Below, in pieces: positions 1-28,658 of a stretch of DNA of 55,050 nt. The DNA lies in the IMG/VR virus record IMGVR_UViG_3300020445_000003, positions 1-55,050 of that record; one strand, 5' to 3'. The notes under the pieces are model-generated. The model was not told the DNA's origin. It saw nothing but the letters and a program-made list of their open reading frames with translations, and did no database searches. A program made the position numbers and the translations under genes. Position 1 is the stretch's first letter; each line of letters begins with the position of its first letter. The DNA comes from a virus.

Positions 1-2926
1 AACCAGACATATACCTAACAAATGCACCATTCTGTCCCATATACACATTGGAACCCATCATTATATCAGTACCACCAGTATCATCAGTAGTTGATATTGC
101 AGCGTCTGCTAAACCAGTTCCATAAGCAGTCTGGAAACAGATAGGTGGTGTTGTCTGCGTAGCTCTTTTTGCTAAGAAAGCTAATTGAGAAGTAGGAGTA
201 GCAGTGTTTATACCAACAGAACCAAACATTCTAGTAGTACCAACAATTGCTAAACCAGATCCAATTCTATTATTATATGCATAATAAGCAGATCCAGGAT
301 CAGCAGCAACAATTGAACCAACTGATGCATAAGAGGTAGCATCAACTACATTTGTCTTGACAGCACTCCATCTCTTTGATGAAGTTCCACAAGTGTAAGT
401 AGTGTTATCACTAGGTTCAAGATGACCATCTGATGTAATGCGAAGTTTTTCTGATGCAGCTACACTCTGACCTCTTGTAATGAATACTAAATCAGAACCA
501 TAATCACTATCAGTTCCTTGCTTAACTGCTGCAATACCAGTTCCAGCATTCTTATGATAAGCATCTGCTGAAACTTCAAAAGCAATACCTACTGCATTAG
601 TTGCAGCATCTCCAGTTTGTTTTAGAACAACATCGTGCCAAGTATCTCCATCAGCTGCATCAAATGCTGTTGTTCTATTCGCAGGTAATATGGTTAATTT
701 AGAAATACCATGAACAGTTCCATCACCACTTATGGATACATCACCACTTGATGTAATGCGAAGTCTTTCTGTATTTCCACCAGTTGCAAAGTTTATATAA
801 CCTGTGGAACTATCTGCCATTATGGTTATATTAGCAGCATTTCCACCACCACTATTAGCATATAAGGCACCATCACCAGCACCTAATGCACCGTATGCTG
901 CATGGCCTGTTCCATATTTTAAGAGACCAATATAAGTACCAACACTATCTTCTGCTCGTACAAATGTTGATGCATTTGCGGCTGTTGCCTTATTTCTTAT
1001 TATTGATTGAGCTGCACTACCAGCATGATGCTGAACATCAAGTAATACACCAGGAGCATCAGTTCCGATACCTAAATTGCCACTGGTAGTTAATACCATT
1101 AATCGGTTAGGTCCACCTCCACCAGCAGTACCTGACCACCATTCATGCATTCTTGTTTCAGTTCCACCTAAATTTGCAGGACTAGCATTACCAGTATAAA
1201 TTAAAGCACCTGCATTATTTGTTCCAATCGTTCCATATCCATATCCGTGACCTAATAATAATCCATCGTATTGTGATGTAGATTTTACTTGAAGTAATGC
1301 GTTTTGTCCATTAGTGCCAGCAACAGGACTTGCTCCATCTATTTTTACTAATCCAGCTGATGTAATGCGAAGTCTTTCTGATTGACTAGTTGCACCAGCT
1401 GCTGTAGTTGAGAAGATAAGTCTACCTGGAACAGAACTTATACCTACACCTCCATCCATCTCTGCTTCTATTGCTGCTACTCTGTAATACTGACCATCAC
1501 CATTTGCAGCTCTAAAGTGTAGTTCTCCTATTGTATCTCCATCCTGAACAATTGTATTTGTTCCTATAGTTGCATTTCTTGATTTTGTAAAATTAATTCT
1601 TGCACCATTTACATTATTAGAAAATCCAAAAAGTTCAACCGTATTATCGTTTCCTCTTGCTACTTGTAATAGACAACCCTCTGATAAATTAGCAGTGTGA
1701 CCAATTAATGTTCTTCCTGATGAGTCGATGCGAAGTCTTTCTTTTGCTCCAGAGTTATCTTCTGTTCTAAAGACAATATTTCCATGAGAATTAGTATCTC
1801 TCTGTTGGAAATATAATGCTCCACCTGTTGAAAATATTTTTGCATAATCATCTGTTCCAGCAGTATCAGTTAATGTAATTCTTGGTGCTGACCCTGACAT
1901 ATGGAATAAAGATGTTGGATTATTAGTTCCGACACCAACATTACCCCCAGATAATATTGTAAGTCTTTCATCACCAGTAGATACATTTCCATTAGTATAA
2001 AAATTCAGACTATCACCATTATTTTTATAGTAAATACCACCCATAGCAGCACCACCAGTATCACCAAAAATAATTCTAGGATTACCAGTAGTCGTTCCAT
2101 CTCTTAACCATAGAGTAGGTGCTCCACCAGTTTTACCTTGTACAGTTAATTCATATGCATCATTATCAACTCCTGCAGATATCGCACCATTTGAATGAAT
2201 ACGAAGTCTTTCTTTTGCGTGTTCATTTATATTAGCATCTGTTGTCTTAAACAACATATCCATATTATTATTTCCATCTTGCACCACCTCAATAGATGAA
2301 TATCTTGAAGGATAATTCTGTGTAGGTGCAAATGCTAGACTTACCCCATTACCACTCGCATTAGACGCATGATTTAAAAGCATTGTGGTAGTCGAAACAC
2401 CACTAGTATCCTTTCTATTCCAAACTAATCCAGCACTATCAATATAGATTCTTGTGCTACCACCTGTTGCTATTTTAAATAAATTATCTCCAGGAAAACC
2501 CATCCAAGTATCATCATCCCCCAAATGATATATTGATTGTCCAATTCCGACACCACCACCAGATAGGATGCGAAGTCTTTCTGAACCTGCTGTTTCTACT
2601 GTAAATGTATCAACAGAAGGGAATCTTATCTTTGTATTACTATCACCTATATGTCTTATCGTATCAGCAATAGCTAAATCACCAGCAACATCTACTACTG
2701 CACTAAATTCACTATTACCAGTTACATCAATACCACCAGCAAGTACTTTAATACCTGTTCTTGCTGTTACAATACCAACAGAATCTATATTAGTTACATC
2801 GTCATATGTTAATGTCCCACCAATACTCACATTACCTGTAAATGTTGCTGCTACACCAGTTACATTTCTAATTGTATAATCCGAAGTTGGTGATACTACG
2901 CCACCAGTAACCTTAGTAAGTGCCAT
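1..2926 (-). CDS. Tail-fibre-like repeat protein, C-terminus cut by window edge
   Basis: The minus-strand frame is open from ATG at 2926 to the left edge, giving at least 975 residues and no stop. The start MALTKVTGGVVSPTSDYTIR is followed by the phage-fibre pattern YDDVTNIDSVGIVTARTGIK. Many units of about 60-120 residues follow, each ending in an ERLRI.S.G.VGIG-type motif, as in trimeric beta-rich distal fibres of T4-like cyanophages. No enzyme motif was seen in the parts translated. The start lies one base after the stop of the 110-aa gene upstream (TAATATG), so the two are co-transcribed. The ERLRI motifs are nearly identical at DNA level (see repeat entry). Role inferred: host-recognition fibre on the virion surface. 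The family type is fairly sure; the exact position in the particle is not known. Confidence 0.8.
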   Translation of the reverse strand, partial: MALTKVTGGVVSPTSDYTIRNVTGVAATFTGNVSIGGTLTYDDVTNIDSVGIVTARTGIKVLAGGIDVTGNSEFSAVVDVAGDLAIADTIRHIGDSNTKIRFPSVDTFTVETAGSERLRILSGGGVGIGQSIYHLGDDDTWMGFPGDNLFKIATGGSTRIYIDSAGLVWNRKDTSGVSTTTMLLNHASNASGNGVSLAFAPTQNYPSRYSSIEVVQDGNNNMDMLFKTTDANINEHAKERLRIHSNGAISAGVDNDAYELTVQGKTGGAPTLWLRDGTTTGNPRIIFGDTGGAAMGGIYYKNNGDSLNFYTNGNVSTGDERLTILSGGNVGVGTNNPTSLFHMSGSAPRITLTDTAGTDDYAKIFSTGGALYFQQRDTNSHGNIVFRTEDNSGAKERLRIDSSGRTLIGHTANLSEGCLLQVARGNDNTVELFGFSNNVNGARINFTKSRNATIGTNTIVQDGDTIGELHFRAANGDGQYYRVAAIEAEMDGGVGISSVPGRLIFSTTAAGATSQSERLRITSAGLVKIDGASPVAGTNGQNALLQVKSTSQYDGLLLGHGYGYGTIGTNNAGALIYTGNASPANLGGTETRMHEWWSGTAGGGGPNRLMVLTTSGNLGIGTDAPGVLLDVQHHAGSAAQSIIRNKATAANASTFVRAEDSVGTYIGLLKYGTGHAAYGALGAGDGALYANSGGGNAANITIMADSSTGYINFATGGNTERLRITSSGDVSISGDGTVHGISKLTILPANRTTAFDAADGDTWHDVVLKQTGDAATNAVGIAFEVSADAYHKNAGTGIAAVKQGTDSDYGSDLVFITRGQSVAASEKLRITSDGHLEPSDNTTYTCGTSSKRWSAVKTNVVDATSYASVGSIVAADPGSAYYAYNNRIGSGLAIVGTTRMFGSVGINTATPTSQLAFLAKRATQTTPPICFQTAYGTGLADAAISTTDDTGGTDIMMGSNVYMGQNGAFVRYMSG

Positions 2927-3650
2927 ATTAGGTAATTTCCATTATCGTGAGTGCTACATCAAGAGTGCTATTAGTATCACTGACTGCTGTAAGTGTATCT
3001 GTTGATTCTAGTACTATTTTATTTCCTTGCATAAACTCCAAAGATGATCCATACGGTAAAGGAACATTTTTCATCAAACTAATATCATCTGTGGATGCTC
3101 TAGTTATTCCCAATCCAACATTGATTGAACTACCAGAGGTATTTGCAAGAGTTACTCCAATAACAACTGTCGTTGTAGCGGGACTACTAGGTACAACATA
3201 AACATTTGATGTTGCAGTACCTACATTATTTTTCGTTTTTAATTTAAAAGTATTTGCCATGTTTATCCTAGAGCGATTGCCATTGCGACTGCATCATTAA
3301 GTGCTGTTTCTGATACACTAACACCACCCACTTTAACGTCTGTTTCACTATTTATTGCACCAGAAACATCCAACATATAATCAGGTATTTCAGATCCGAT
3401 ACCAACATTACCACCATTAAAATATGATTTTCCATTTCCTCTAAGATGAATCTTAGTTGATCCATTATGTTTAAGATTTAATCTACATTCTTCAGTACTA
3501 CCTTCTTTCCATACTTGAAATAATTCTTGTGCATGAGACCTAAGTTCAAATAGATCATCATCATTAAGTCGAACTGCAACTCTTTCAGAATTAGACATTA
3601 CAGTGGTATTAATACCAACATATCCACTTGAGTCGATGCGAAGTCTTTCT
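756..3650 (-). repeat. Dispersed 15-mer coding ERLRI in fibre genes, left cluster
   Basis: The plus-strand 15-mer atgcgaagtctttct occurs exactly at 756, 1365, 1728, 2568 and 3636. Near copies lie around 435, 1950, 2205 and 3836. Read on the minus strand it encodes the Glu-Arg-Leu-Arg-Ile core of the fibre repeat. Codon choice is conserved as well as the amino acids, and flanking bases often match: 27 bases ending at 3650 equal those ending at 36907. The repeat spans two genes. Confidence 0.85.
2928..3260 (-). CDS. Small beta-rich virion protein (110 aa)
   Basis: A 110-residue protein starting MANTFKLKTKNNVGTATSNV and ending in LDVALTIMEIT. It is Thr/Ser/Val rich, with alternating hydrophobic residues, no Cys and no membrane segment, which suggests an all-beta fold. 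The patterns VYVVPSS.ATTTVVIGVTLAN, LPYGSSLEFMQGNKIVLE and D.L.A.SDT..TLDV.L resemble a small structural family found beside fibre genes in marine phages; this is from memory and not searched. It sits between two fibre genes with only 1-2 bases on each side. It is likely a fibre-associated or decoration protein. The family is moderately sure; the function is inferred from context. Confidence 0.65.
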   Translation of the reverse strand: MANTFKLKTKNNVGTATSNVYVVPSSPATTTVVIGVTLANTSGSSINVGLGITRASTDDISLMKNVPLPYGSSLEFMQGNKIVLESTDTLTAVSDTNSTLDVALTIMEIT

Positions 3651-4339
3651 ACATCACCTGTAGATGCAGCAACATAAGTATTTTGAACTATGAATGCTTC
3701 CTGACCATCAACTGATTGAAGTATAGCACCAGTTGTTCCACCTCTAATATACAAATTATTATTTGTATGATGTGTAAGTCCTGCTGTCTCAAAAGAAGTT
3801 GATTGTCCTGTAAGTTTTAATACACCTGACGATGTGATGCGAAGTGCTTCTGCTAAACTTGCTCCACTGGTTCTAGTGTGGAATGCCATAAAACCATCAT
3901 CATAATTTGTATCATCACTACCAGTTACATATTGAATTCTAGCTACAGAATTTCCATTCCATTTTCCATCTATAATTGCAAACTGAGTATCTTTTTGTCT
4001 TGCAGAATCAAATGTAAAAGAATTAAATGAATTAGCAGTTGTCTTTAATCTTAAATCAGCAGGACCACTTGTATTCCAAACATCTAAAGTTTTTGCTGGT
4101 ATTTCACTTCCGATACCTACCTTCTTATTGCCACTATAATGTATTGATCCTCCACCAAAATTCTCTGTCCAGGGAGTAAGTAATGCTGCAGTATCTGCTA
4201 TTCCTACATTATTTGTATCCCTTTTAGTATATAAACGACCATCATACGTATTAAGAGCTAATTCTCCTAATAATAAATCTGATTCTATTGGCCTTTTATC
4301 TGCTGTGGCAGATCTCCTTAACCTAAACTTCGTAGCCAT
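3263..4339 (-). CDS. Tail fibre protein with phage-fibre N-terminal motif (358 aa)
   Basis: The N-terminus carries FRLRRSATADKRPIESDLLLGELALNTYDG followed by RLYTKRD, split here for length. This LGELALN.YDGRLYTK motif is typical of the N-terminal segment of phage tail fibres. The middle has VGIGSE, ALRITSSG, ERLRIDSSGYVGIN and further VGIG turns, a repeat-rich fibre shaft. The C-terminus is short (VGGVSVSETALNDAVAMAIALG region), with no chaperone domain. It is the first gene of a minus-strand run; its ATG at 4339 is about 49 bases below a NATAAATA late box and just past a terminator hairpin. Likely a short side fibre. The class is confident; the receptor is unknown. Confidence 0.8.
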   Translation of the reverse strand: MATKFRLRRSATADKRPIESDLLLGELALNTYDGRLYTKRDTNNVGIADTAALLTPWTENFGGGSIHYSGNKKVGIGSEIPAKTLDVWNTSGPADLRLKTTANSFNSFTFDSARQKDTQFAIIDGKWNGNSVARIQYVTGSDDTNYDDGFMAFHTRTSGASLAEALRITSSGVLKLTGQSTSFETAGLTHHTNNNLYIRGGTTGAILQSVDGQEAFIVQNTYVAASTGDVERLRIDSSGYVGINTTVMSNSERVAVRLNDDDLFELRSHAQELFQVWKEGSTEECRLNLKHNGSTKIHLRGNGKSYFNGGNVGIGSEIPDYMLDVSGAINSETDVKVGGVSVSETALNDAVAMAIALG

Positions 4340-4638: not shown

Positions 4639-7137
4639 ATGGCTCTAAAGATATACCAAAAATTTGGATTAAGAAGAGATAATGATCTTGGCGATTTAAA
4701 CAATCAAACATTAGCATTAACTAATGTATTAAATGATATACAATCTGGAACAGAATTTAAAGCAGAAGACTTAGGAGTAATAAAGGGCATGTATGCCCAA
4801 GGTCTTGAAAGTAGTACATTTTTGGAAGTAGGTGGAAGTGCAGAAGAAACTACTACTTCAGATGGAGTTACAACACCATTAACACCATATGTTTCATATC
4901 AAAATAGATTAGATTTAAGTGAAACTTATGCAGGAACACCAAGAATATTTGGTGGAGATGGACCTAATGTAAAATATTATGATTTTGATCAAGTAGCAGA
5001 GCCAATCCCAACTGATCCAACTATCAATACAGGTATGTGGATAAGTGGTACTGAACCATTTGCAGAAGATCAATTCTGGGAAAGAGGACAATTTGCATGG
5101 GATAGAAAACTACATGAAAAATCTGCATCTGTAAACGGTGGAATAGAATGGGAAGGTTATTATGTTCCGACTGGAACAGGAAATCATAGTTTTACTGTAG
5201 GTACTACTGGATGTTGGACATTTGATTTCCAAAAAATTGATTATACTAATGCATTTCAACCAAATACTGACTGGGATACGGCACCAGGTGGAGCATATAA
5301 TGCACAAAGGAGTGATACTCATAACACAATATATAAAAATTATGCTTTCATAAGACCAGAAGTAAATATTTCTTGTTATCGTTATGTAGATACTAATAAT
5401 GCTACTGGTACAGTTCTACAAATAGTTAATGCATCAGATTATAATAAAGTTGCTGCTGGAATGACTTGCATAAATGGTAGTTATATTGAAGGTGGTAACG
5501 ATGGTGCTAAAGTATCAGAGTATGATACAGCTAATGGAAGAATAACACTAGATACAACACTAGTTGATGGAAGTACAAACAATAGTCCAGTTAAAAATGC
5601 ATTATCTAATACTTCTTCTGGTGCTCAAGACATTAAATTTGTACAAGAAACCAACCAATCCACATCTGCTACATGGAAAATTGATTATCCTCTAACTGCA
5701 GGAACTCCATATAGAATTAAATTTAGATATTTTACTCCCCAAATTTGGGATTCAAATAAAAGTAATAGATTTATGAATATAGTTGAATCTATACCTAACG
5801 GTGGAGGTCAAAGTGAATTAAATTATAAAAAATTATATAATTTAACTTATGATTTTAGTGAGAAAGAAAAAGGATCCTTTAATAAATTTTTGGATGCTTC
5901 CATTTTATTTGGTGGGGGAACTACTGGAGGAACAACTCACGCAAATTACACTAGCATAAAAACAACTAAAAAAATAGACGGAAGATATGATCCAATAAAC
6001 TTAACATTAACAAATGATTATGATAGTACTACAGTTAATGGAAAAAAATATCCTTACAAAAAAATAGAAGTTTGGACAGATACAAAAGAAGTTGCACAAA
6101 ATTCAAGTTCTATGGCAATAGATAATACTACTGGAATAGAAGTTGGAAACTACATATATGATCATAGTTGGGCAACAAGTGGAGCAACTGGAACCAAATA
6201 TATTGCAGACAAAACAAGAATTGTAGAAGTTATTGCAAATAGTAGTATTATATTATCTTCTCCATTTTTAGCTACTGGTTCAGCAACATTTAAAATTATT
6301 GAGCATCGTGGACATATAAAAAGATTTGTTGCAGATCATAACAACAGTAACACTTTAACATTAAAAGCTAATACTCCAACTGGTAATAATGATCCAAATC
6401 AAGATGATGAATTAAAGAAAAAAATGATAGTTGTAGGTGAACATTTACCGATCAATACTCAAATAGATGTTAGACCAACTACTGCTACTACAGTCGTAGT
6501 AACGGCAAATACTACGGGAGGTAATCTTACCAATAAACCTTATTACGTTTATGATTACCAGGGATTGATTAATGATTCTATGCTTGCATTTTGTGAACCA
6601 AGTACTGATTCAGACCAGAACATTTGCCTAACTGTAGAAGATGACATTCCAGAAGGTAGTACAAGTATTACATTTTCTACAGCTGGAGTATCACAGGCAG
6701 CATGGAATTCAATACCCAATAATAGCAACAGAGTTCTTGGATATTACTTTGCTTCTGGTACTACTGCATCTAAGAGTGGAAGTAGAACTCTAAACTTAAG
6801 TACTGCAACAGCAAAATTAATTAAAGCAGGAAATAACTTTACAGTAACTGCTGATACTGGTACTGAAGACAAATCATTATGTTGTCCACCAAAAGACACT
6901 GCACCACCATTCGCATCAACCGATGATGGAATGGTGACTGTAGAAAATCACGAAACTCTAGATGTTCTTTCTGGTAATGTTATATTTGATAATATAAGAG
7001 CAACTATTCTTCCATCAACTGAAATAGTAGAACCTCCTTCAGTTGATTATGATGATTTGTTAGGTACACTCCTAGATAAAAGAATTAGATTTAAAGCAGG
7101 AGATGGCAATACTTATAGATTGTTTGTAAGTACTTAA
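4639..7137 (+). CDS. Large virion structural protein with PA14-like segment (832 aa)
   Basis: The start MALKIYQKFGLRRDNDLGDLN leads into a Thr/Asn/Ser-rich, mostly beta protein without signal peptide or membrane segment. Residues about 167-200 (GIEWEGYYVP.GTG.HSF, then GCWTFDF) look like a PA14/GLEYA-type sugar-binding beta sandwich; this is a weak reading. The C-terminal part carries short repeats such as NYI.DHSW, IPEGSTSITF and a final segment LDKRIRFKAGDGNTYRLFV. It is the only plus-strand gene in the first 51 kb and converges on the next gene with a 5-base gap and no terminator. A weak late-like box, ACTAAATA, lies at 4616-4623. Likely a baseplate- or fibre-associated virion protein; exact role unknown. 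Confidence 0.75.
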   Translation: MALKIYQKFGLRRDNDLGDLNNQTLALTNVLNDIQSGTEFKAEDLGVIKGMYAQGLESSTFLEVGGSAEETTTSDGVTTPLTPYVSYQNRLDLSETYAGTPRIFGGDGPNVKYYDFDQVAEPIPTDPTINTGMWISGTEPFAEDQFWERGQFAWDRKLHEKSASVNGGIEWEGYYVPTGTGNHSFTVGTTGCWTFDFQKIDYTNAFQPNTDWDTAPGGAYNAQRSDTHNTIYKNYAFIRPEVNISCYRYVDTNNATGTVLQIVNASDYNKVAAGMTCINGSYIEGGNDGAKVSEYDTANGRITLDTTLVDGSTNNSPVKNALSNTSSGAQDIKFVQETNQSTSATWKIDYPLTAGTPYRIKFRYFTPQIWDSNKSNRFMNIVESIPNGGGQSELNYKKLYNLTYDFSEKEKGSFNKFLDASILFGGGTTGGTTHANYTSIKTTKKIDGRYDPINLTLTNDYDSTTVNGKKYPYKKIEVWTDTKEVAQNSSSMAIDNTTGIEVGNYIYDHSWATSGATGTKYIADKTRIVEVIANSSIILSSPFLATGSATFKIIEHRGHIKRFVADHNNSNTLTLKANTPTGNNDPNQDDELKKKMIVVGEHLPINTQIDVRPTTATTVVVTANTTGGNLTNKPYYVYDYQGLINDSMLAFCEPSTDSDQNICLTVEDDIPEGSTSITFSTAGVSQAAWNSIPNNSNRVLGYYFASGTTASKSGSRTLNLSTATAKLIKAGNNFTVTADTGTEDKSLCCPPKDTAPPFASTDDGMVTVENHETLDVLSGNVIFDNIRATILPSTEIVEPPSVDYDDLLGTLLDKRIRFKAGDGNTYRLFVST

Positions 7138-8589: not shown

Positions 8590-11500
8590 TTAGTTGTATC
8601 CTGGAATATTCCAATTAGCTTGTGTTTTTAAGAAAGTAACAATTTCTAAAGACTCTTCGCTAATTGCAAGGTGTTGTTGTGGTGCATTATTATCTGAATT
8701 ACCATTAATATAATTATTTCTCATATCTATTGTAACTCCACCTCTATTACTTGCATTATAACTAGCAAGAGCATCTGCAATAATTTTCTCTAATTCTCCA
8801 GCAGGTAATTGATTATTAGTAACGTCAAAATACCTCAATCGAGTAAGAGAAGCAATTGAACCTTCTGTATACCTATCAAACTTATTATTATATAGTGCAA
8901 TATATCTTACTCTAGGACATCCACCGAAGTTAGGAATATCATCTTCTATACTATTATAATGGCAATAGAATATATCTAGATTACTCAAATTACTAAACTC
9001 AGATAATTTAGTAAATCCAGTGCTATCTCCTCTTCTATTTTGGTGAAGATATAGTCTTCTCAATGATGTTAAATCAGTAAAAGGTGGTATAGTTCCATAT
9101 AACTCATTATTATGTAGATATATGTAATCAAGTTGCCTATTGGAAGAGAATGTTGGTAGTGGTCCTGTAAATCTATTAGAGTTAAGATACAAATATCTTA
9201 TTTTTGTCATTGTAGTAAATATTGGTAATCTACCACTAATTTGATAATTAGAATTAATCAATAGATTCCTCATTTCAATTGTATCTAAAAATGCATTTTG
9301 ATGTATTCCATCTTCAATTGGATCACTTGTATTATTACCTTTAGCAAAAGTTGTGCTCGAAAAATAAAAAGTCTCTAATTTTGCACATTGACTAAAGGTT
9401 GAAGCACTTATTACATGGTTTTGATCTGCAGTGGCTACATTTGGATCTCCACCAGTTATACGAGTACCACGAATATCAACATATCTCAGGTTAGAATTAC
9501 TACTAAAAGAAGGAATAGGACCAGTTAGACGAGAAGCATAGCAACGTATTTCTTGCAAAGCACTACAACCTGCAAGTTTATATCCAGTATGTTTTCCATC
9601 AGTAGTACCAGAAGTATTCTGACTCGTAAAGAATGAAGTAGTAGTATAATTATATTGATTAAGAAAATGAGTTAAGTTTAATCTATTTGGTATAGTTGGC
9701 ATTTCTAGTCCTGTATGTCCCATATCGATGGTTTTGAGATTCATACTCTGTAATTCAAAAGTAGTGTCAGAACTAAGATAATAATTATTATAAATGTCAA
9801 GAGTTTCTAAATCTGGTAAATTCATAATAGAATATCTACCAGTACTAGTACTAACCCACGATCCATCTCTATAAACTTGTCTGGTGTCATCCTGTTTCTG
9901 TACAGCAACAGTAATAGTTACCACACTGCCTTTTTGATCAGCAGTAAAATTCTTATCTACCGTTACTATATTACCTTTTATTCTTATTACTCTTGTATTA
10001 GATGGTATTCCTGTGTCACTACCTGTATTTGAAAGTACAGCACCAGGTGCTAATTTATAAGTATTTCCACTACAATTATATATTACATCCTTACCATTTT
10101 CATAATTTCCAGTAAAAGTAAAAGTTGCAGTATCTGTAGTATTAGTACCAGTTACATCGATTCTACGAAAACTATTATTACGAGCATTGAAATTTATTAT
10201 AGTTTTAGGAACATTGGGTAATGTAGCAGTCGCACTATTACTAGAATTCCTATCATTATCATCAGGATAAAAACTTTGACCACCACCCCTATAAAAACTC
10301 AAAGTCGTTAGTTCAGGAAAACGATCTACAAATATATTTCTTTCTATAGATCCATTGAAAGTTCTACCCATATATATTTCTTTCATCGTAATTGGCATCT
10401 TATTCGTAATTTCCTGCGTCAATATCCTTTCTGATCTAGTTTCACTTAAATGAAGAGGATTAGTAGAAATATCTAAAACTTGTAATGCAGGAGTTATACT
10501 ATTAAAATTAGAAAAATTAGAAATATTATTATTATTTAACGAAAAAGAAGTTAATTGGCTAAATTTAGCAACAGGCAACTCTTCAATATTAGCAGATACA
10601 AGTCGAATTGATGTAATTTCATCCGCAGGATAATAAAGTTCAATAAATCTTTCTCTAGATCTAGAAGTTCGATATCTTGGTATACTTAAAGAATTTTTAT
10701 AATTAGAATAACTATTTCTATCATCAGTTCTAACTACTTTCCAACTAGGTGCTATGGTATTACCATCAGCAGAAATAGTATTAACAGTACAGTTAACATT
10801 ATCCAAACTTCTAAAAAATCCCCTAAATGCAAGTGGAATACCTTTCATTGCATAAAGATAGCGAACTTCTCCATCAAGATGAATTTTAATCTTAGAAGTA
10901 GGAATTTCAGATGGAAATTCAACTTGCGTTGGAGTTAATGTGGTCTGTAATCTTCTTCCACTAGCACCACTTGTACTAGTATAGGTAATTTCAGCAATTT
11001 CATCAGTCTCTTGTGGATCGGCTGTAGATGATGCCTGTTCTCCAAATCTCAATAAACCTCTATCTGCACCAGAATTATATTTTATTTGTATTCTTGAACC
11101 ATAAGATATTCTAGCTAATCTTTGAATATTAAGATTCTGACTATTTGCTCTACCATCAGAAGAACTCCAAGCACTAACTCGTGAAGTTGAGATGTCTGCA
11201 AGTGCAACACGAAAAGGATCATCACTAGTATCAGTAACCGTCATATTCAGCTCTACTGGTACACCAGTCATAGTACCCAACAATTTTATTGCATCACCAA
11301 CACTATAACCACTTCCTTTATTATTTACCGTTACATTAACATTAGCACTACCACCATCAACATCAACTACAACATCAAAAGTAGCCTTTCCATCTCCTGG
11401 TATTTCATCTTCTCTATCTAGTATATAGTAAACAGTGGTTACATCAGGGTCTATATCAAGTATAGCACCAGTAGCAGAAAAGAAACGTCCTTTATTCACA

Positions 11501-12219
11501 CGCACTGTTAAATCATTATAATCTCCATCAGGAGTACCACCATTATCAGTATCATCTATTTTTAATACTCTGCCAGGAACAGAGTATGAATCAGAATCAA
11601 TCTTTACTCTATGAGCATTTGTAAAAGTTATTGGATATGCCGTTTGCACACAAAAGTGATCAGTAGCACCACCAGGATTTGGATTAGTGGATTCATAATC
11701 GTGTACCAAGCCTGGTTGCACTGTTATACTAGCACTTGAATAATGACTAGCAGATGAAGTGACATATACAGAAACTTGTTCATATGCATAAACATTAGTA
11801 TAGGTTCCCACATTATAATCGCCAACAGGACCACCATGAGAAGCATTTATTGCTTCAATTCTTCCAGTAACACCACCTTTCAAATAACGATATCTAATTG
11901 CAGATCCACTTAAAACACCATTAACATCTAAGTCACCAAATAGCATTTTATCGATACCTGCCCTTATATCCAATAAACCTTCATACCTACCAGCATCACC
12001 ACTGTACCTATCTAATTTCTTCCATATAGGTGTATTGAGACTACTAAAACTACGCCAATCTGCAGCATCCACAGGAGTCTCTGCTTCTGAAGATTTATAT
12101 ATTACTGACAAATCTAATGCATTGACACCTAAATTTTTTAATGCTACATCTTTATCTAAGACATCAGCAAAATACTGATTGACATCTAAACCAAATATTT
12201 TAGGATTCTTAATTGACAT
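8590..12219 (-). CDS. Virion protein with C-terminal leucine-rich repeats (1209 aa)
   Basis: Residues 1-115 (NPKIFGLDVNQYFADVLDKD, then DLDVNGVLSGSAIRYRYLKGG) match an N-terminal anchor module I recognise from T4-like cyanophage structural proteins. Residues about 280-320 hold a GSGY-type module. From about 534 to 1172 the protein is a leucine-rich-repeat array, for example KIRYLYLNSNRFTGPLPTF, QLDYIYLHNNELYGTIPPF and SLRRLYLHQNRRG, with a pitch of about 23 residues and a plant-type L.LNSN.FTGPLP consensus. The array is interrupted by a beta insert at about 690-775. LRR surfaces bind proteins or glycans, so this is a strong candidate receptor-binding protein. It heads a short pair with the VCBS-like gene. 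Acquisition of the LRR part by transfer is likely but unproved. Confidence 0.85.
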   Translation of the reverse strand: MSIKNPKIFGLDVNQYFADVLDKDVALKNLGVNALDLSVIYKSSEAETPVDAADWRSFSSLNTPIWKKLDRYSGDAGRYEGLLDIRAGIDKMLFGDLDVNGVLSGSAIRYRYLKGGVTGRIEAINASHGGPVGDYNVGTYTNVYAYEQVSVYVTSSASHYSSASITVQPGLVHDYESTNPNPGGATDHFCVQTAYPITFTNAHRVKIDSDSYSVPGRVLKIDDTDNGGTPDGDYNDLTVRVNKGRFFSATGAILDIDPDVTTVYYILDREDEIPGDGKATFDVVVDVDGGSANVNVTVNNKGSGYSVGDAIKLLGTMTGVPVELNMTVTDTSDDPFRVALADISTSRVSAWSSSDGRANSQNLNIQRLARISYGSRIQIKYNSGADRGLLRFGEQASSTADPQETDEIAEITYTSTSGASGRRLQTTLTPTQVEFPSEIPTSKIKIHLDGEVRYLYAMKGIPLAFRGFFRSLDNVNCTVNTISADGNTIAPSWKVVRTDDRNSYSNYKNSLSIPRYRTSRSRERFIELYYPADEITSIRLVSANIEELPVAKFSQLTSFSLNNNNISNFSNFNSITPALQVLDISTNPLHLSETRSERILTQEITNKMPITMKEIYMGRTFNGSIERNIFVDRFPELTTLSFYRGGGQSFYPDDNDRNSSNSATATLPNVPKTIINFNARNNSFRRIDVTGTNTTDTATFTFTGNYENGKDVIYNCSGNTYKLAPGAVLSNTGSDTGIPSNTRVIRIKGNIVTVDKNFTADQKGSVVTITVAVQKQDDTRQVYRDGSWVSTSTGRYSIMNLPDLETLDIYNNYYLSSDTTFELQSMNLKTIDMGHTGLEMPTIPNRLNLTHFLNQYNYTTTSFFTSQNTSGTTDGKHTGYKLAGCSALQEIRCYASRLTGPIPSFSSNSNLRYVDIRGTRITGGDPNVATADQNHVISASTFSQCAKLETFYFSSTTFAKGNNTSDPIEDGIHQNAFLDTIEMRNLLINSNYQISGRLPIFTTMTKIRYLYLNSNRFTGPLPTFSSNRQLDYIYLHNNELYGTIPPFTDLTSLRRLYLHQNRRGDSTGFTKLSEFSNLSNLDIFYCHYNSIEDDIPNFGGCPRVRYIALYNNKFDRYTEGSIASLTRLRYFDVTNNQLPAGELEKIIADALASYNASNRGGVTIDMRNNYINGNSDNNAPQQHLAISEESLEIVTFLKTQANWNIPGYN

Positions 12220-20666: not shown

Positions 20667-23600
20667 TTAAGAAACTCCGACTCTTCCTTTAGCGATTACA
20701 AATGTTTTCTTTATACTTATATATCCACCTTTCGGGCCATTAGCCAGTCCAGTGTTATTATTAGTGAGGATATTAGTAGGTTCATTGAAAGTAGTTACCA
20801 CATTGTCACTATTAGGATCTACTTTTAATACGAGATTAGCACCACCACCTATTTGACTACCTGCAATTGTAATAGTATCACCAGTAGCATATCCAGAACC
20901 ATAAGAAGTAATGGTGAGTGTTGCGTTACCACCACTATCAACAGATACTGAGAACTCAGCACCAGTACCAGATCCACTTGTAGTAATAGTAGTTACCGCA
21001 TAGGTTCCAGCAGTTCTACTAGCATCAGTAGCACCACTAGTAACTGCAATTGTATATTTAAGTGTTAATACGAGATTAGAACCACCTGCAACACCACCCA
21101 ATTTAGCATTAGTGATTGTGATAGTGTCACCAATGACATATCCAGTACCACAAGAAGTGATAATGACTGTTGCTTCACCAGCAACATTAACAGATACTGA
21201 GAACTCAGCACCAGTACCAGATCCACTTGTAGTGGTATTACTTACCTCATAGGTTCCAGCAGAATCAGCAGGTCTAGAAGTATTACCAGAGTTTGCAACA
21301 ACAGAATATACTGGGAATGCTGCATTATCATTACTCAACACTTTGATTGGTGCCAATCTCATAGTACCAATACCTGCGAATTTATTCTTCTCCTCAACAA
21401 TGAATTTATATGAGGTAAGAGGAGGGTTAGCACTGTGATCTTTCAACTGAACAATATCATTAACTGAAATACCATTAAATTGATTAACGTCATTAAGATG
21501 TACCCAATAGCAAGTATTTGCAGTTCCTGCATTACTATCATAAACTTGAGTTCCCCACTTACCAGTTGCAATTCCAACATATGTGGTATAACCAACTGGT
21601 TTATCTAAGAATTCAGTACCAACAACTTCATAACCGAGATGACTTGATATTCCTATTAAACCATCACCATTAACAGTTAATTTCTCAGTAATTGTACTTG
21701 ATGAAAGTTTAAGTTGAATGTAACCATGTTCCATATCTATTTGATTACCATCCGAAGCAACTGTAGGAATCTCAAAATCAACAAAATGAGGTGTCAAACT
21801 TGGTTGTAGACCTGCTTGATTAACATTAATTAATGTTCCAATTCCTGCGGTAATCAATGGAATATTCTTAAGATCTTTAGGTACCCCATCTTCAACATAT
21901 AACATTTCAGGACCATAGAAGTCAGATTGATCTTCAGTGATGCTAACATTAAGATTGATTGAATTCCAATCACTATCATAGATATCAGGTGATGGTAACC
22001 ATTCGTCTGAAGGTCCAAGGAGAATATTATTAGTTGTAGTGATCTTACCAGTTGCATATGCATCTAATCCAGCACCACAATTTCTAATAATGTTTCCACC
22101 AGTAGAAACAACAGTTGATCCAGAAACATCTACGGATCCAGGATAATTTTCAAATAATGAATCATTAACTCTTGTACTTGTAGAACCAGTAGAAACTAAT
22201 GGTTTAAATGCAATATTATCCTGTAAACATCCATCAACAATAGTTGAGTTCTCTACAGATACTCTTGTTGATCCATCCAAATATAGACCATCTCCAGAAC
22301 TATTACGTAATTCTACATCTTTTATTAAACTAGATTTGGCATATCTACAATATAACATATAATTACTATCACTGTATATTATATTATTATGATTATTACC
22401 ATCAATCGTTATATTGGATATAGTAACATCTTTTGGTTCAACTGTTGCTGAAGCCATAGTAGTACCAATACCAACAAAGTTTCCTGTTACTGGAATGTCT
22501 ACACCACCAGTAGTTGCATCCGTAAATATTGATGTAGAAGGACCATAACCATCTTTAGCATCATTACCAAAGAATTGTTTCTTAATGATACTATTTTTTC
22601 CTCGACCTTCCAAAGTAAAGTTAGATGGAATCAATAGTTCATTAGTATAATAGGTTCCACTAGGAATACTCAAATAATTGGATCCACTAGATTGAACCGA
22701 AGTTACTGCTTTTCTAAATCCAGCAGTACTATCGTGAACAACCTTAACAGCATTATTTGTACCAAACCCAACAGTACCATTATAATCATACTGTTGAGAT
22801 AGAGTTATACTCTCAACTCCAACAGCAACTACTTCGTCAATTGACCATCCTCTTCTTCTTCCACCTTCAGGATTTCCTGTATTAACATCTTCTGATGGCC
22901 CCATAACAGAATCTCTCAATGTTAGTTGTGTTGGTAATCCATTATTAGATGGAATATTAGGGAAATGAATTTGATGTCCTACATTAACACTTCCTTCTGC
23001 TGCTACCTTATTGGTATTATCCCAAATAGCATTATCACCCGTAAAATCACTGGGAAGAAATTCGTTTAAATCTCCTTTCTTAGCCCAGTTTGTTTTAGAG
23101 AAAGTTCCATAATCTTTCCATTCAATATTAGCAGTACCGCCACCACCATCAGCGATTTCCTTCGAACCTAAAATTGCTATCAATCTTGCTTGGGTTCTGG
23201 TTGTACTAACACCACTAGCACCATTTTGTATTTGACGATATATTAAAAGACCATGATCTTCATTTCTTGCAAGAGTCAATGCATTGAAATTAGTTCCATT
23301 CAAGTTACCAATATCCTGGTGATTTATTCCCAATCCATTATTAACTGCACTCGCAATACCAACTCTTCCATCAGCAAGTTTATATTGTGCTACCCAGTAG
23401 TTGTATGTTTTAATAGGAGAAATAGAAGTATCACCAACTGTAGCAGCAGTACATCTTACACATGGTATAGCAGCATCAGTATTTCCTGTTTTAGTTACAC
23501 CAAATAATTTTACCTTTTCTCCAACATAGAAATTAGAAGTATTAATTCCAGTAATTACTGCCTTGCTGGATACAGTTGTACCAGTTCCAATATAAACTGT

Positions 23601-26600
23601 TGGATCATTACTGATTCCAAAACTTCTAAGAGCAAAACTATCAACTTCGTGAGCATCAACTAATTCATAACTATCTCCCAAGTTATTAACCTTCAAGAAA
23701 CGGTTTCTTGCAAATGTATTATGAGTATTTGCTTGAACGTCTCCACCATCACTATTGGCTGGCGTAGGAAGATCTTCTAATGCAAAATTCTGATACTTGT
23801 TCGCACGAACAGTTCCATTGACATCAAGTTCATATGCAGGAGATGCCTTTTTAATACCGACATTTTGAGTAGATTCTTCAACTATTAAAGATGGATTACC
23901 ATCTTCTCCAACTTGGAATGAAGGAGGTTGATTTATATTACCCTTTAGAAGTAATTTAATTGCTTCGATCCCATCCTTAGCACTAGATGTAATCTTATTC
24001 GTAAAGTTAACTGGTCCTCTAAATTCTGAAGGAAGTAGCTTATTAGGTCCACCACCAACACGAAGTGTATTTCTAATATACACATCATCAAATACTGCTG
24101 ACAAATCAGATATATCTGCACCAAGATAATTTTCTTTTGCTTGAACTCTTTCTCCACTGAAGAACTCACCACGATCATTCATACCAGAATAGAATACAAC
24201 TCCACCTTTTTCTTCAGTTGAAATTGCAAGAAGTTCTGCATCTGCAGTAATCTGTTTTGTTTGTTTTTGTGGTAATGCAGTAGAGTAGTTACCTGGCCCA
24301 TAACCAAGATACTCAAATGTATGACCTGAAGCACGAATACTTGAGAATCTACGAACCTCTGATGGGATTACTTTAATCTTCTTAACTTTAGAATCTATAA
24401 GATGAGTTTCTGGTTTTGTACCCAAAACTCCTCTAAACACATTTACAGTATCACCATCAACAACTTTCTTAACTCTTACAATTTCATTATCAATTTGAAG
24501 GAAATCACCAACTAAAATCCCAACAGAAGAATCAATATCTATGCCGAAATTATCAATATTTCCACTTGTTGGTTTTGCAACAGCACTTTTCAATTTTGTT
24601 TGAATAGAAGTTGAAAGATTCAATAGTCTTCCTGAAATCTTTTCAGTTTCTAATGATGAACTTTCTCCAGTTGCACTAATACCATACTTGTAAATCTGAG
24701 AACCTACTGCTGCAGCTTGAGCAACAGGTAAATTTGGTGCAGTTGTCTTAATTGTAAATTGAGTAGATGCTTGATTACTACCAGGTATTATTCCTTGTAC
24801 AATAAAGTCTTGATTGTATGTGGATGCACTAGATCCAGTTACACCAACAATTTTAACCTTATTACCAACAGATAATCCATGATGAGATGTTGCAACTACA
24901 GTTGCAATTCCAACTTTATCGGTTCCTGCAATACCTGCAATGCTAGAAATAGAAATTGCTTCATCCAGTGCAAAGAACATTCCTTTCTGTGGGAATGAAG
25001 TATAAACACCAGGATTAGTATCTCCAGTATCGTATGTTATAGTATTTTCAGTAGGAACCGATGCTATTTTATAAAGTCCATTATATGCACTATTTGTTCT
25101 ATTCGTATCAGTACCAACTCCAGTAACTTGTACAACATTACCAACAACTTGATCAATTGCAGATACTGTAACTACAGCATTATTACTATTGCCACCAGTA
25201 ATTGCTAAAGTACTACCAGCACCAGTAGTAACATATGCAGAACCACCATCCATTATCTCAATAGCAGTTACTGCACCTCCAGATGAAGTTACTTTTGCGG
25301 TTGCTCCTTGAGAAACTCCCTTTCCACCTGCCTCATTAATTAATGGTACATTATATCTTGTAGTATCACCATAACCACTATTTGTTCCACTGATAGCTCC
25401 AAGTGTTACAATAGAATTTAAATTATGATTAACTGCACTATACAGAGTTGCAGTTCCATTATTCTGACCTTCTGCTCCTGTTACAGCATATCCAACTCTA
25501 TTATCCTTAAGATACTCAACAACTCCTTCTTTTGTTATACTATTAAGAGAATCATTAACATCTACTCTACCAAGTGGAGTTTTATTTGCATATGATATTG
25601 ATTGATGTGGATCGACATCTAAGTTATCAACATCAACTGTTGGATACAAATTCTCAATATTCTGCTTATACTTCCTATCTACAAATTGTGCAACATTTGG
25701 AGAAACATTACCAATTAAAGTAGTAAGATAGTATATACCATCTTGTTGATCAGTAATATACTCCTGAACCGTTTCTACATCTTCAATTGTATAAGATGTA
25801 TCATATTCATTTCTAGAGAAAATTGGCAGTTTTGCTACCAAATTAGCAGTACTACGATCATTTGTATTATTTGTAAAATCACCAGCACGTTTTGGAATAG
25901 TTACAGTAAATGTCTTAGTTGTTGGTGTAGATTTGACATAAAAATATCCATTATAACCATCTTTAGCATTAGAATCAGTATACAATGAACTAGTTACACC
26001 TCTTACCCACACTCTATCTCCTACAGATAGTCTATGAACATCTTCTGTTGTTACTGTTGCAGTAAGATCAGTTGAAGTAGCTGTACTAATTCCAGATATA
26101 ACTCTTGTATTTCTATTCTTTAAAAGACTATCAAGTGTGCCATCTGCATCATCAAATATATTAGTAGAAGATTCTTGTAAAACATAATTCTTTGCAGGTG
26201 CCTTTGCAATTTTAGCACCAGTATATTCCTTTGGAATAACATATCTAAGTTTATAAATTCTATCTTTTAAATCACGAGTTTCAGATTTTCTTCTTACATA
26301 TGTTGCTGAGTTATTTGCCGTAATATCATCAGTATTATCTTGATTAGCAGCAAGTTGCATAACAATCTCATTATCACTAGTACCATTAGTACTATAGAAG
26401 AACCAATTATTACTAGAAGAATCCCATTGAACAGGATGTCCACTATCTCCTGGTAATTTATCAGTTACTCTACTAATAACACTAATTCTACCACCATTAG
26501 TGTTTTCAATTTCAACTGCAGTATTTGATGCAACTTTGTTTAAAGATTTTGCTAATTTAATTTTAGTAGCACCAATAGAAGATGAAGCAATTACATAATA

Positions 26601-28658
26601 TAATGTTTCATTTTCAAGTCCATCAGGCATTTCACCAGTATCACTATAAATCGTTACAGATTCTCCATTCACAAACGTATGATTAATACCTGTTCCAAAA
26701 TCTAATATATTATTTGCAGTATCAATAGAATCTACGGCATATACCTTTTCTGCACTCTCAGAAGGAGTATTATCCTGCCCTGTACCAGTAGAAGAATTTA
26801 CTCCATTTTCTGCTGGTTGCATCAAAATTGGAGAAGAATGTGTAGCAGTCACATTATTCCTATTAGTCCAAGTCAAATATACTCTATCACCCTTTCTTGC
26901 ACCAATTTTATATCCACTACTAATATTTGATGGTGGATTACTCTCATCTGTTGCACCAAGAAGATATATTCTACTAGATTGATTAGTAGCAATTTCTGCT
27001 CTAGTCTTTGCGATATCTAAAAGTGTCCATACAACGTTGCTTTCCTCTTCTTGTATGTCTTTTGGTGGAACAATATGAGTTACATATCCAGTATCATCAC
27101 GAGGGAAAGCTACTTTTCTAAATCCTTTGGATATTAATGACTTTGCACCAAAGTTAGAGTTAGAGTTTGTGATTGATTGATCTGATCCAGATTCAGATAA
27201 GAAATGATCAGAGAAACCAATAGCAAATACGGATACTGCCTGAATAAATGCAGAATTAGATGCTTTGATGTGGTAATTAGAATAGTCTGGTTTATATACA
27301 GCATCCTGATTAACATATAAAGGTAAATTTGTAGCAGCAGTTGCATTGCTGTCTTTATAATCACCACTAGACTTATTATAGATTAAGAATGCATTATCAT
27401 CCTTCTGAAGACCAATACCAGTAAACTGGGCAACAACCATAGACTTAAATCCAGTTGCCTTATCACCATCAGCATGTAATCCACACATACCGTAAGTGGA
27501 TCTCAATGAACAGTTAAAGACATATGGTGAAGCACCTGTTACATTATCAGTCTCGACAATTACTTGTGCTGCAGATGGTTGTTCACTTAATGATGTAGGT
27601 GTTGCTGGTAATTGATACGAGAATGTTGTTGCCGCAACTCCTGCTCCTACAGGGCCTGTTGCAGTTACAATCTTTCCTCCATTATACCAACCAGATGATA
27701 TACCAGTAATACGAACTGTATCATCTATAGTCAATCCATGAGCAACAGTGGTTTCCACAGTTGCTAAAGAACCATTTGCAGTTGCTTTTTTAATTTCTAA
27801 ATTAGTAGTTCTTAAATCTCCAACAATCTTATATTCTGGATTATTTGGTTGGAAATCAGTTGAACCTGGATAATTTGTAATCTTTCTATTTCCAGTATCA
27901 TCACCATAGGCATTCATCACCTTGTAATAATACATCTGAAGATCTGTCAAAGATGTAAGATCTTTAGGGTTTATACCATCAGCATATTCAAATACTGTTA
28001 GTTTATGGTGAGATAATGCAGGATTTGCTTTAAGTCCGAAATTAGCAGGATTATAATATACTCCTCTATCTGAATCAAAAATACTAAACTGCCAGAAATA
28101 GCAACCACCAGTTACACGGAAAATTGCAGATCTTGCTACATAATCAGCAGCATCAATATTATTTTTTGTGGGATCGGGAACATAAAGTGGTCTAACTTTT
28201 GTTTTTCTTAAATCTAAACCAACAATAGATGTACCTTTAGGTACAACAACTCCACCATCTACAGAGTTAAATTTGTGAAGGATATTATCAGAATTATTTA
28301 AATCAACTACAGAATTTATTGTTAACTCAATTGGAGGATTTGTTTGTGAATTTCCTTGATTATCATACCAAGCAACTGTTCCGCTATTATCTTTTATATA
28401 ATATCCTGGTCTATTATCAATATAATGAGTTCCTGGATATAACAATATTGTTGTTTTATCGTATTTGTCGTTATTTTCTCCAATCTGATATGCAAACCTT
28501 GCTGCTTCCAACAATGCTCTTTGAATAGTAGCAAATGGTCTTGTTAAAGAATTACCTTTATTATCAAAACTGTCAGTTGCGTCTAAATCTGATGGGTTTA
28601 CATAAAGAATATTACCATCAGTGTTAACTAAAAAATTTTCTAACCTAGAAAGAGGCAT
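20667..28658 (-). CDS. Giant virion protein with parallel beta-helix segments, VrlC-like (2663 aa)
   Basis: The first 110 residues (MPLSRLENFLVNTDGNILYV, then TRPFATIQRALLEAARFAYQ and TTILLYPGTHYIDNRPG) match the start of the very large cyanophage protein often called VrlC, with a pectate-lyase-like set-up (PFATIQRAL, LYPGTHY). Residues about 2075-2180 form a second beta-helix stretch (ISNITIDGNNHNNI, IKDVELRNSSGDGLYLDG, IIRNCGAGLDAYATG). Several ERLRI-free fibre segments and repeated V.VTGV-type blocks lie between. The C-terminus carries two copies of an 83-aa GSGY module. At nearly 8 kb it is the largest gene here. A late box lies 32 bases before its ATG. Likely a peripheral baseplate or fibre protein that may bind or cleave polysaccharide; no catalytic residues could be assigned. 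Confidence 0.8.
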   Translation of the reverse strand: MPLSRLENFLVNTDGNILYVNPSDLDATDSFDNKGNSLTRPFATIQRALLEAARFAYQIGENNDKYDKTTILLYPGTHYIDNRPGYYIKDNSGTVAWYDNQGNSQTNPPIELTINSVVDLNNSDNILHKFNSVDGGVVVPKGTSIVGLDLRKTKVRPLYVPDPTKNNIDAADYVARSAIFRVTGGCYFWQFSIFDSDRGVYYNPANFGLKANPALSHHKLTVFEYADGINPKDLTSLTDLQMYYYKVMNAYGDDTGNRKITNYPGSTDFQPNNPEYKIVGDLRTTNLEIKKATANGSLATVETTVAHGLTIDDTVRITGISSGWYNGGKIVTATGPVGAGVAATTFSYQLPATPTSLSEQPSAAQVIVETDNVTGASPYVFNCSLRSTYGMCGLHADGDKATGFKSMVVAQFTGIGLQKDDNAFLIYNKSSGDYKDSNATAATNLPLYVNQDAVYKPDYSNYHIKASNSAFIQAVSVFAIGFSDHFLSESGSDQSITNSNSNFGAKSLISKGFRKVAFPRDDTGYVTHIVPPKDIQEEESNVVWTLLDIAKTRAEIATNQSSRIYLLGATDESNPPSNISSGYKIGARKGDRVYLTWTNRNNVTATHSSPILMQPAENGVNSSTGTGQDNTPSESAEKVYAVDSIDTANNILDFGTGINHTFVNGESVTIYSDTGEMPDGLENETLYYVIASSSIGATKIKLAKSLNKVASNTAVEIENTNGGRISVISRVTDKLPGDSGHPVQWDSSSNNWFFYSTNGTSDNEIVMQLAANQDNTDDITANNSATYVRRKSETRDLKDRIYKLRYVIPKEYTGAKIAKAPAKNYVLQESSTNIFDDADGTLDSLLKNRNTRVISGISTATSTDLTATVTTEDVHRLSVGDRVWVRGVTSSLYTDSNAKDGYNGYFYVKSTPTTKTFTVTIPKRAGDFTNNTNDRSTANLVAKLPIFSRNEYDTSYTIEDVETVQEYITDQQDGIYYLTTLIGNVSPNVAQFVDRKYKQNIENLYPTVDVDNLDVDPHQSISYANKTPLGRVDVNDSLNSITKEGVVEYLKDNRVGYAVTGAEGQNNGTATLYSAVNHNLNSIVTLGAISGTNSGYGDTTRYNVPLINEAGGKGVSQGATAKVTSSGGAVTAIEIMDGGSAYVTTGAGSTLAITGGNSNNAVVTVSAIDQVVGNVVQVTGVGTDTNRTNSAYNGLYKIASVPTENTITYDTGDTNPGVYTSFPQKGMFFALDEAISISSIAGIAGTDKVGIATVVATSHHGLSVGNKVKIVGVTGSSASTYNQDFIVQGIIPGSNQASTQFTIKTTAPNLPVAQAAAVGSQIYKYGISATGESSSLETEKISGRLLNLSTSIQTKLKSAVAKPTSGNIDNFGIDIDSSVGILVGDFLQIDNEIVRVKKVVDGDTVNVFRGVLGTKPETHLIDSKVKKIKVIPSEVRRFSSIRASGHTFEYLGYGPGNYSTALPQKQTKQITADAELLAISTEEKGGVVFYSGMNDRGEFFSGERVQAKENYLGADISDLSAVFDDVYIRNTLRVGGGPNKLLPSEFRGPVNFTNKITSSAKDGIEAIKLLLKGNINQPPSFQVGEDGNPSLIVEESTQNVGIKKASPAYELDVNGTVRANKYQNFALEDLPTPANSDGGDVQANTHNTFARNRFLKVNNLGDSYELVDAHEVDSFALRSFGISNDPTVYIGTGTTVSSKAVITGINTSNFYVGEKVKLFGVTKTGNTDAAIPCVRCTAATVGDTSISPIKTYNYWVAQYKLADGRVGIASAVNNGLGINHQDIGNLNGTNFNALTLARNEDHGLLIYRQIQNGASGVSTTRTQARLIAILGSKEIADGGGGTANIEWKDYGTFSKTNWAKKGDLNEFLPSDFTGDNAIWDNTNKVAAEGSVNVGHQIHFPNIPSNNGLPTQLTLRDSVMGPSEDVNTGNPEGGRRRGWSIDEVVAVGVESITLSQQYDYNGTVGFGTNNAVKVVHDSTAGFRKAVTSVQSSGSNYLSIPSGTYYTNELLIPSNFTLEGRGKNSIIKKQFFGNDAKDGYGPSTSIFTDATTGGVDIPVTGNFVGIGTTMASATVEPKDVTISNITIDGNNHNNIIYSDSNYMLYCRYAKSSLIKDVELRNSSGDGLYLDGSTRVSVENSTIVDGCLQDNIAFKPLVSTGSTSTRVNDSLFENYPGSVDVSGSTVVSTGGNIIRNCGAGLDAYATGKITTTNNILLGPSDEWLPSPDIYDSDWNSINLNVSITEDQSDFYGPEMLYVEDGVPKDLKNIPLITAGIGTLINVNQAGLQPSLTPHFVDFEIPTVASDGNQIDMEHGYIQLKLSSSTITEKLTVNGDGLIGISSHLGYEVVGTEFLDKPVGYTTYVGIATGKWGTQVYDSNAGTANTCYWVHLNDVNQFNGISVNDIVQLKDHSANPPLTSYKFIVEEKNKFAGIGTMRLAPIKVLSNDNAAFPVYSVVANSGNTSRPADSAGTYEVSNTTTSGSGTGAEFSVSVNVAGEATVIITSCGTGYVIGDTITITNAKLGGVAGGSNLVLTLKYTIAVTSGATDASRTAGTYAVTTITTSGSGTGAEFSVSVDSGGNATLTITSYGSGYATGDTITIAGSQIGGGANLVLKVDPNSDNVVTTFNEPTNILTNNNTGLANGPKGGYISIKKTFVIAKGRVGVS
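20940..21233 (-). repeat. Tandem 249-bp (83-aa) GSGY module duplication
   Basis: A 45-base stretch at 20940-20984 is identical to 21189-21233, exactly 249 bases apart and in frame. Each copy encodes TTSGSGTGAEFSVSV followed by a G.GY..GDTITI turn. The DNA identity suggests a recent duplication or recombination between copies. Confidence 0.85.

Follow-up and report, generated by a model that had tools for sequence, protein, structure and literature searches.

An apparently undescribed, conserved family of leucine-rich repeat proteins encoded among the tail-structural genes of T4-type phages resembling cyanophages

Genome context of the LRR gene

The leucine-rich repeat (LRR) gene described here lies in the window, which is the complete IMG/VR record IMGVR_UViG_3300020445_000003 of 55,050 bases; its features and those of the surrounding gene cassette are listed in Table 1. 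The order of gp32, gp53, gp48, gp2, gp4, gp26, and gp5 in the window matches that of Synechococcus phage S-SSM7 and is the T4 core virion gene order of the T4-like cyanophages (Kyanoviridae and allies); on this gene order, the source of the window is a T4-like phage. Tail fiber genes come after gp5, and the LRR gene is positioned downstream of gp26 and gp5 and beside a tail fiber gene, in the order of T4-like cyanophages. The cyanophage setting given in the first-pass annotation was right: the phage is cyanophage-like and of T4 type. Past famC, fiber-like genes occupy 2–4339 of the minus strand, the one at 2–2926 running off the end of the record.

Table 1. Coordinates of the LRR gene, the regions of its product and the adjoining genes in the window
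Feature	Coordinates	Strand	Remarks
Tail fiber protein, 2663 aa, adjoining the cassette	20667..28658	-	phrog_529
Second famA cassette gene, 1375 aa	16536..20663	-	phrog_1645; homologue of S-TIM5 AEZ65692
famA cassette gene, 1429 aa	12243..16532	-	phrog_1645 virion structural protein
LRR protein, whole ORF, 1209 aa	8590..12219	-	
N-terminal anchor/docking module, residues 1-112	11884..12219	-	predicted α-helical; conserved
Insert peculiar to the window protein, residues 113-335, ~220 aa	11215..11883	-	low pLDDT
Conserved β domain before the solenoid, residues 336-534	10618..11214	-	ADISTSRVSAWSS and YAMKGIP motifs
LRR solenoid, about 20 repeats, residues 535-1170	8710..10617	-	Pfam, AF2, PDB and viral fold matches, register
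Non-LRR insert inside the solenoid, residues 688-800, ~110 aa	9820..10158	-	pLDDT 36-49; no clear relative
Solenoid C-terminal cap, residues 1171-1209	8593..8709	-	helix; conserved W1203
famB cassette gene, 481 aa	7143..8588	-	Big_9 (Ig-like) domain; N-terminal NQGYRRDLNLxET tag, a relative of the docking module
famC cassette gene, 832 aa, convergent	4639..7137	+	N-terminus homologous to the LRR-protein anchor and to S-TIM5 AEZ65696

Domain organization and predicted fold of the LRR protein

The reading frame, its strand and the extent of the repeats were as the first-pass annotation had given them. All three Pfam LRR models scored over their cut-offs in the HMM search that had been proposed as a check, with LRR_4 at 1.7e-25 (88.9 bits, cut-off 27), LRR_8 at 5.6e-18 (64.9 bits, cut-off 27), and LRR_1 at 30.7 bits (cut-off 20.6). 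The Pfam scan detected no kinase family in the protein, whose N-terminus is of phage type, and neither Pfam nor PHROGs gave a fiber-family signature. An AF2 model built on a 38-sequence alignment gave the predicted solenoid that had been the second check, a long array mostly at pLDDT 80–97 that is interrupted by the low-confidence insert at about residues 688–800; the N-terminal part was poorly modeled, with helices at its start. A relative of 821 residues that carries neither insert (L018) was modeled with a mean pLDDT of 83.7 and about 95 over the solenoid. Family-wide, 984 LRR motifs were observed compared with 326 in shuffled sequences. Both the sequence matches and the models thus assign the window protein to the LRR superfamily, with tandem repeats predicted to form a solenoid with parallel strands on its concave face.

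The repeats begin at residues 535, 556, 579, 612, 637, 674, 804, 828, 849, 888, 911, 948, 983, 1007, 1030, 1053, 1081, 1104, 1128, and ~1161, the last being placed by eye. The period of about 23 residues reported earlier describes most of them, which are 21–25 residues long, but seven measure 28–39 residues and the repeat starting at 674 holds the ~110-residue insert. Units of the FTGPLP type, from which the array had been called plant-type, are indeed present at 888, 983, 1007, and 1030, with a partial unit at 1081, but they are a minority. With an LTGxIP extension in about 4–5 of 20 repeats and lengths of 21–39, the protein falls outside the plant-specific (PS) LRR class.

Between the N-terminal anchor, put at 115 residues in the first-pass annotation, and the repeats lie an insert and a β domain. 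Residues 1–112 contain the motif FGLNVxxxLADVxxKxxALxNLGLxxxDLxxIRG, share 43–53% identity with relatives and are helical in the AF2 models. The insert that follows is missing from relatives; part of it resembles GGxGYxxGD β modules, with 45% identity over 49 residues to the C-terminal repeats of the family member L052. That protein (L052:9001-13224) has a C-terminal extension of ~600 residues made of repeated GGxGYxxGDxI β modules, one of which resembles the insert of the window protein. The β domain is marked by invariant alignment columns and is built of strands in the AF2 models.

A conserved family in a fixed gene cassette

Direct searches with the protein were of little use. Against 50,697 phage records, tblastn with the whole protein, the N-terminus or the LRR part returned nothing useful (Listeria matches were among the returns), as did tblastn against phage records with three relatives (L018, L056, and L094), and a degenerate-pattern scan of viral contigs with the single window protein gave no match. 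With the neighboring gene W12243 as the query, 14 loci were recovered, each with an LRR protein encoded close downstream and, in 12, as the very next gene. An alignment of those LRR proteins led to 105 relatives in IMG/VR, of which 80 were kept, and the family comprises 73 distinct proteins in all. LRR_4 was found in 45 of 46 family representatives and LRR_8 in 44. Many members also match phrog_6688 and phrog_21719, whose function is unassigned in PHROGs; where positions are known, these matches fall in the LRR part and not in the anchor, and no PHROG model matched the anchor or base of the family.

The cassette has the order famA-(famA)-LRR-famB, followed by famC on the opposite strand. Downstream of the LRR gene, famB and then famC are present in 66 of 73 cases, another gene and then famC in one, famB and then the end of the contig in one, and no downstream gene on the contig in five. 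Upstream, famA lies immediately next to the LRR gene in 57 of 73 cases; another gene is found there in 14, mostly with famA behind it, and the contig ends in two. Mean identity for the LRR protein is 64%, compared with 65, 62, and 59% for the cassette neighbors. The occurrence of the same cassette around 73 distinct relatives indicates that the protein is not a one-off fusion. What had been presented as an LRR surface joined to a virion base holds as to the solenoid and the phage-type N-terminus, in a tail-structural setting, but a special joining event is unsupported, since the family is old and syntenic and base and solenoid diverge together at about the pace of their neighbors. These data define a conserved and so far unnamed family of LRR proteins, encoded among the tail-structural genes of cyanophage-like, T4-type marine phages that are at least in part cyanobacterial. 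It is apparently undescribed; full-text searches confined to the open-access literature turned up no article dealing with cyanophage LRR proteins.

The breadth of the family also bears on the origin of the repeats. The best PDB sequence matches of the window protein are ectodomains of plant LRR receptors (FLS2 at 7.8e-24, PEPR1, ERL1, and BRI1), and Foldseek likewise ranked plant-type LRR receptor ectodomains first in the PDB (E 1e-11). These matches, together with the GxIP extensions in some repeats, would fit the recent acquisition by a phage base of an LRR gene from a plant or alga, but the matches partly mirror which LRR proteins have been solved, and the family-wide breadth and synteny, the distant orthologue in phage S-TIM5 and the irregular repeats make such an event most improbable. 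No cellular relative bearing the base of the LRR family was found. Two apparent bacterial members, in an Opitutales MAG (L100) and a Cellulomonadaceae MAG (L101), carry the phage cassette and are probably misbinned phage contigs. A recent plant-gene capture was rejected, and "plant-type" does not stand as a phylogenetic term: it denotes a likeness of motif, confined to the GxIP extension of some repeats, and is not evidence of plant origin.

Homologues of famA (phrog_1645) occur in cyanophages that lack an LRR family member, S-CBS4 (L111, gp44-45) and the Cylindrospermopsis phage Cr-LKS4 (L112, g15-g16). Near the famA homologues of Cr-LKS4 lies an unannotated gene for a protein of 1130 residues (g13, L112:22232-25624) with 13 LRR-like motifs against 6.2 expected and no match to the LRR family.

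Homologues in the S-TIM5 group

Cultured relatives were found only in the Aurunvirus cyanophages, with a homologue in each of S-TIM5, S-TIM54, S-TIM61, and S-TIM66, and the arrangement in S-TIM5 and S-TIM54 is the same as in the window cassette. In S-TIM5 the LRR slot is occupied by AEZ65694, which matches the family profile at 10–328 and 613–772, covering base and LRR, and which has weak Pfam LRR matches (LRR_1 at 7.4e-5). The S-TIM5 protein H6WFW9 (1193 aa) was the top viral fold match to both AF2 models over the full length (E 2.2e-12 and 1.4e-18). AEZ65694/H6WFW9 resembles the window protein in its cassette slot, N-terminal anchor, domain with the STSR.S motif and LRR region, but it is highly diverged, with tblastn from the window protein coming up blank, and its repeats are degenerate. 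We propose a family characterized by an anchor, an STSR domain, and LRRs in the slot famA-LRR-famB|famC, and the window protein fits it by sequence and position.

The S-TIM5 record labels AEZ65694 "virion structural protein and packaging" and several nearby genes "hypothetical protein," the S-TIM54 orthologue is likewise annotated "virion structural protein," and the records seen for the S-TIM5 protein carry no LRR annotation. A passage in PMC10665884, citing Sabehi et al. 2012, refers to proteins identified in S-TIM5 virions. Of 13 records of cyanophages and other marine phages, from cultures or single cells, that were searched with the family profile, 11 had no match, all of them outside this group; P-SSM2, S-SRM01, and other Kyanoviridae, which had been expected to carry the gene, are among the candidates that this search dismissed.

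A putative docking tag shared by three adjacent genes

In hhalign, the profile of the LRR-family N-terminus matched that of famC over 62 columns at a probability of 96.8% (E 2.4e-10, taking this comparison alone); famB against famC reached 83% and the LRR family against famB 17%. Reversed and column-shuffled controls gave 0–1% (≤0.4% for LRR against famC), and the famA N-terminus matched none of the LRR, famB, and famC profiles. Three adjacent genes thus appear to use one type of docking module with differing distal domains: LRR, Ig-like (Big_9), and, in famC, a large domain of unassigned fold. The reading of the N-terminus as a phage-type base is supported: the base is common to two neighboring gene products and recurs in an S-TIM5 protein annotated as virion structural. 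The module of ~45–60 residues at the N-termini of the LRR, famB, and famC products may serve as a signature for finding particle-borne proteins of marine phages.

The tag bears on two alternative functions. LRR proteins frequently serve as effectors in bacteria, and on that general ground one could envisage a non-virion LRR protein that works as an effector inside the host, whether synthesized there or delivered to the cell; the tag common to the neighbors, the annotation of the orthologue as virion structural and the structural-gene neighborhood make this very improbable. The protein might otherwise decorate the head or whiskers and give the phage a weak, unselective hold on particles or cell surfaces, analogous to Ig-like decorations and distinct from binding of a specific receptor. 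Such a role would agree with the Big_9 domain on the same tag in famB and with the PHROGs category of famA (phrog_1645), "head and packaging," but the gene sits among tail fiber and baseplate genes, and the tail neighborhood in the window makes that category label look doubtful; we regard decoration as improbable.

Composition and evolution of the concave face

In the close set, the exposed positions of the concave face contain 16.6% Tyr, 10.2% Arg, and 13.9% Asn, compared with 2.6% Tyr, 3.3% Arg, and 11.4% Asn in the rest of the solenoid. The enrichment of Tyr is partly general to LRRs, with a weaker bias in FLS2 (8.2% concave versus 0.3% elsewhere). Concave sites are the most variable class between lineages in the close set of 15 relatives (p = 0.008 among polar sites); the extra variability of polar concave sites is not significant in a wider set of 38 sequences (p = 0.11), and these tests, like the dN/dS comparisons below, rely on few sequences and ignore tree structure. 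Variability is lower in repeats 1053–1128. With recent lineages pooled, 27% of concave sites are variable versus 20% of the rest (p = 6e-5); the excess is strong in L070/L073, L066/68/69, L008/L012, and L054/61/77, and in L076/L086 and the L056 group the concave face is less variable than the rest.

Concave dN/dS is 0.39–0.82 in six of nine groups and 0.03–0.13 in the other three. In five of those six groups the base is at 0.12–0.28 (concave 0.39–0.65), with 0.69 in L070/L073, and the core is at 0.02–0.25 in all six. In L070/L073 the concave sites show more synonymous change as well, so local recombination is possible there. In two deeper groups the concave face is strongly constrained (0.03–0.09), and no site class exceeds a dN/dS of 1 in the nine groups. 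A first small analysis, of the L056 group, had suggested a conserved concave face; this was dropped after nine further groups gave mixed results, most of them opposite. The overall pattern is that expected of a ligand-binding face, diversifying in some lineages and constrained in others; it is consistent with such a function and does not prove it.

The main rival to a displayed adhesin is a structural scaffold, in which the LRR arc would be a fixed part of the baseplate or tail collar that binds phage proteins (famA, famB, famC, or fibers) and not the host. Fixed synteny, divergence in step with the neighbors, a concave face that is strongly constrained in the L056 and L076 lineages, and the lower variability of repeats 1053–1128 would all be natural for a scaffold, but in most recent lineages the concave face changes fast with base and core more fixed, and most of the cultured T4-like cyanophages examined assemble without the LRR protein. 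We consider a scaffold rather unlikely, though a contender to be taken seriously.

Proposed role in ligand binding

The LRR fold, the syntenic family, the shared tag, the AEZ65694 homology, and the concave-face bias, all obtained by computation, lead us to favor, with modest confidence, a ligand-binding protein displayed in the tail-fiber/baseplate region and acting as an accessory or primary adhesin. The short helical N-terminal tag would dock the protein on the particle, at the type of site also used by the two tag-bearing neighbors; the β domain would come next, and then the arc of ~20 repeats, projecting a concave face rich in Tyr, Arg, and Asn that most likely would bind a host-surface ligand, either a glycan or an outer-membrane protein. 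"Virion protein" and "recognition surface," the terms of the first-pass annotation, are what we infer from these features, as are the position on the particle, the oligomeric state, the ligand, and any part in adsorption; ligand binding itself is supported by the composition and evolution of the concave face.

Several observations argue against a displayed adhesin. On the concave face dN/dS stays at or below 1 and two deeper groups are strongly constrained, the excess variability of its polar sites is not significant in the wider set, and part of its Tyr enrichment is general to LRRs. Compared with its neighbors, the protein has no hypervariable or swapped distal domain, the concave face evolving faster in some lineages only, and this neighbor-like divergence speaks against a rapidly swapped host-range tip of the kind typical of phage receptor-binding proteins. 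Judging by the records that the profile left unmatched, many T4-like cyanophages also appear to do without the family. A stronger version of the adhesin reading, in which the solenoid is a receptor-binding protein of a previously undescribed adhesin class, is part of a three-way docking system on one tag, and diversifies its concave face with the host, is put forward tentatively, and we would not yet count on it.

Immune receptors of plants and animals are built on the same LRR-solenoid architecture. The window protein resembles the plant receptor ectodomains (FLS2, PEPR1, BRI1, and ERL1) in its solenoid, in units that in part are of the LxxLxLxxNxFxGxIP type, and in a ligand-type concave face, but it is without a transmembrane or kinase part, has a phage base and lacks the plant-specific pattern in most repeats, and there is no evidence of descent. 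Its proposed role and genome neighborhood are like those of the trimeric fiber tips of T4-like phages (gp37/gp38 and short tail fibers), with a different fold. To our knowledge, few of the receptors used by marine T4-like cyanophages, or of the phage proteins that bind them, have been identified. A conserved family of LRR proteins whose ligand face can be read, present in about a hundred uncultured phages and the S-TIM5 group, offers a testable candidate adhesin. Another tailed phage, Vibrio phage vB_VhaM_pir03, encodes a BspA-like LRR protein (ORF 287; PMC7765460), which belongs to a different LRR class (BspA/DUF285).

Hosts of the family

A cyanobacterial host is likely for the subfamily of the window protein, as judged from genes in the contigs of relatives and not in the 55-kb record itself. 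Genes of PF00124 (psbA/psbD type) are present in 5 of 21 long family contigs, and all five are among the 10 that encode the closest relatives of the window LRR protein, with 0 among the 11 remoter ones. One PF00124-bearing contig of 236 kb encodes a gp23 that is 84% identical to that of Synechococcus phage S-SRM01.
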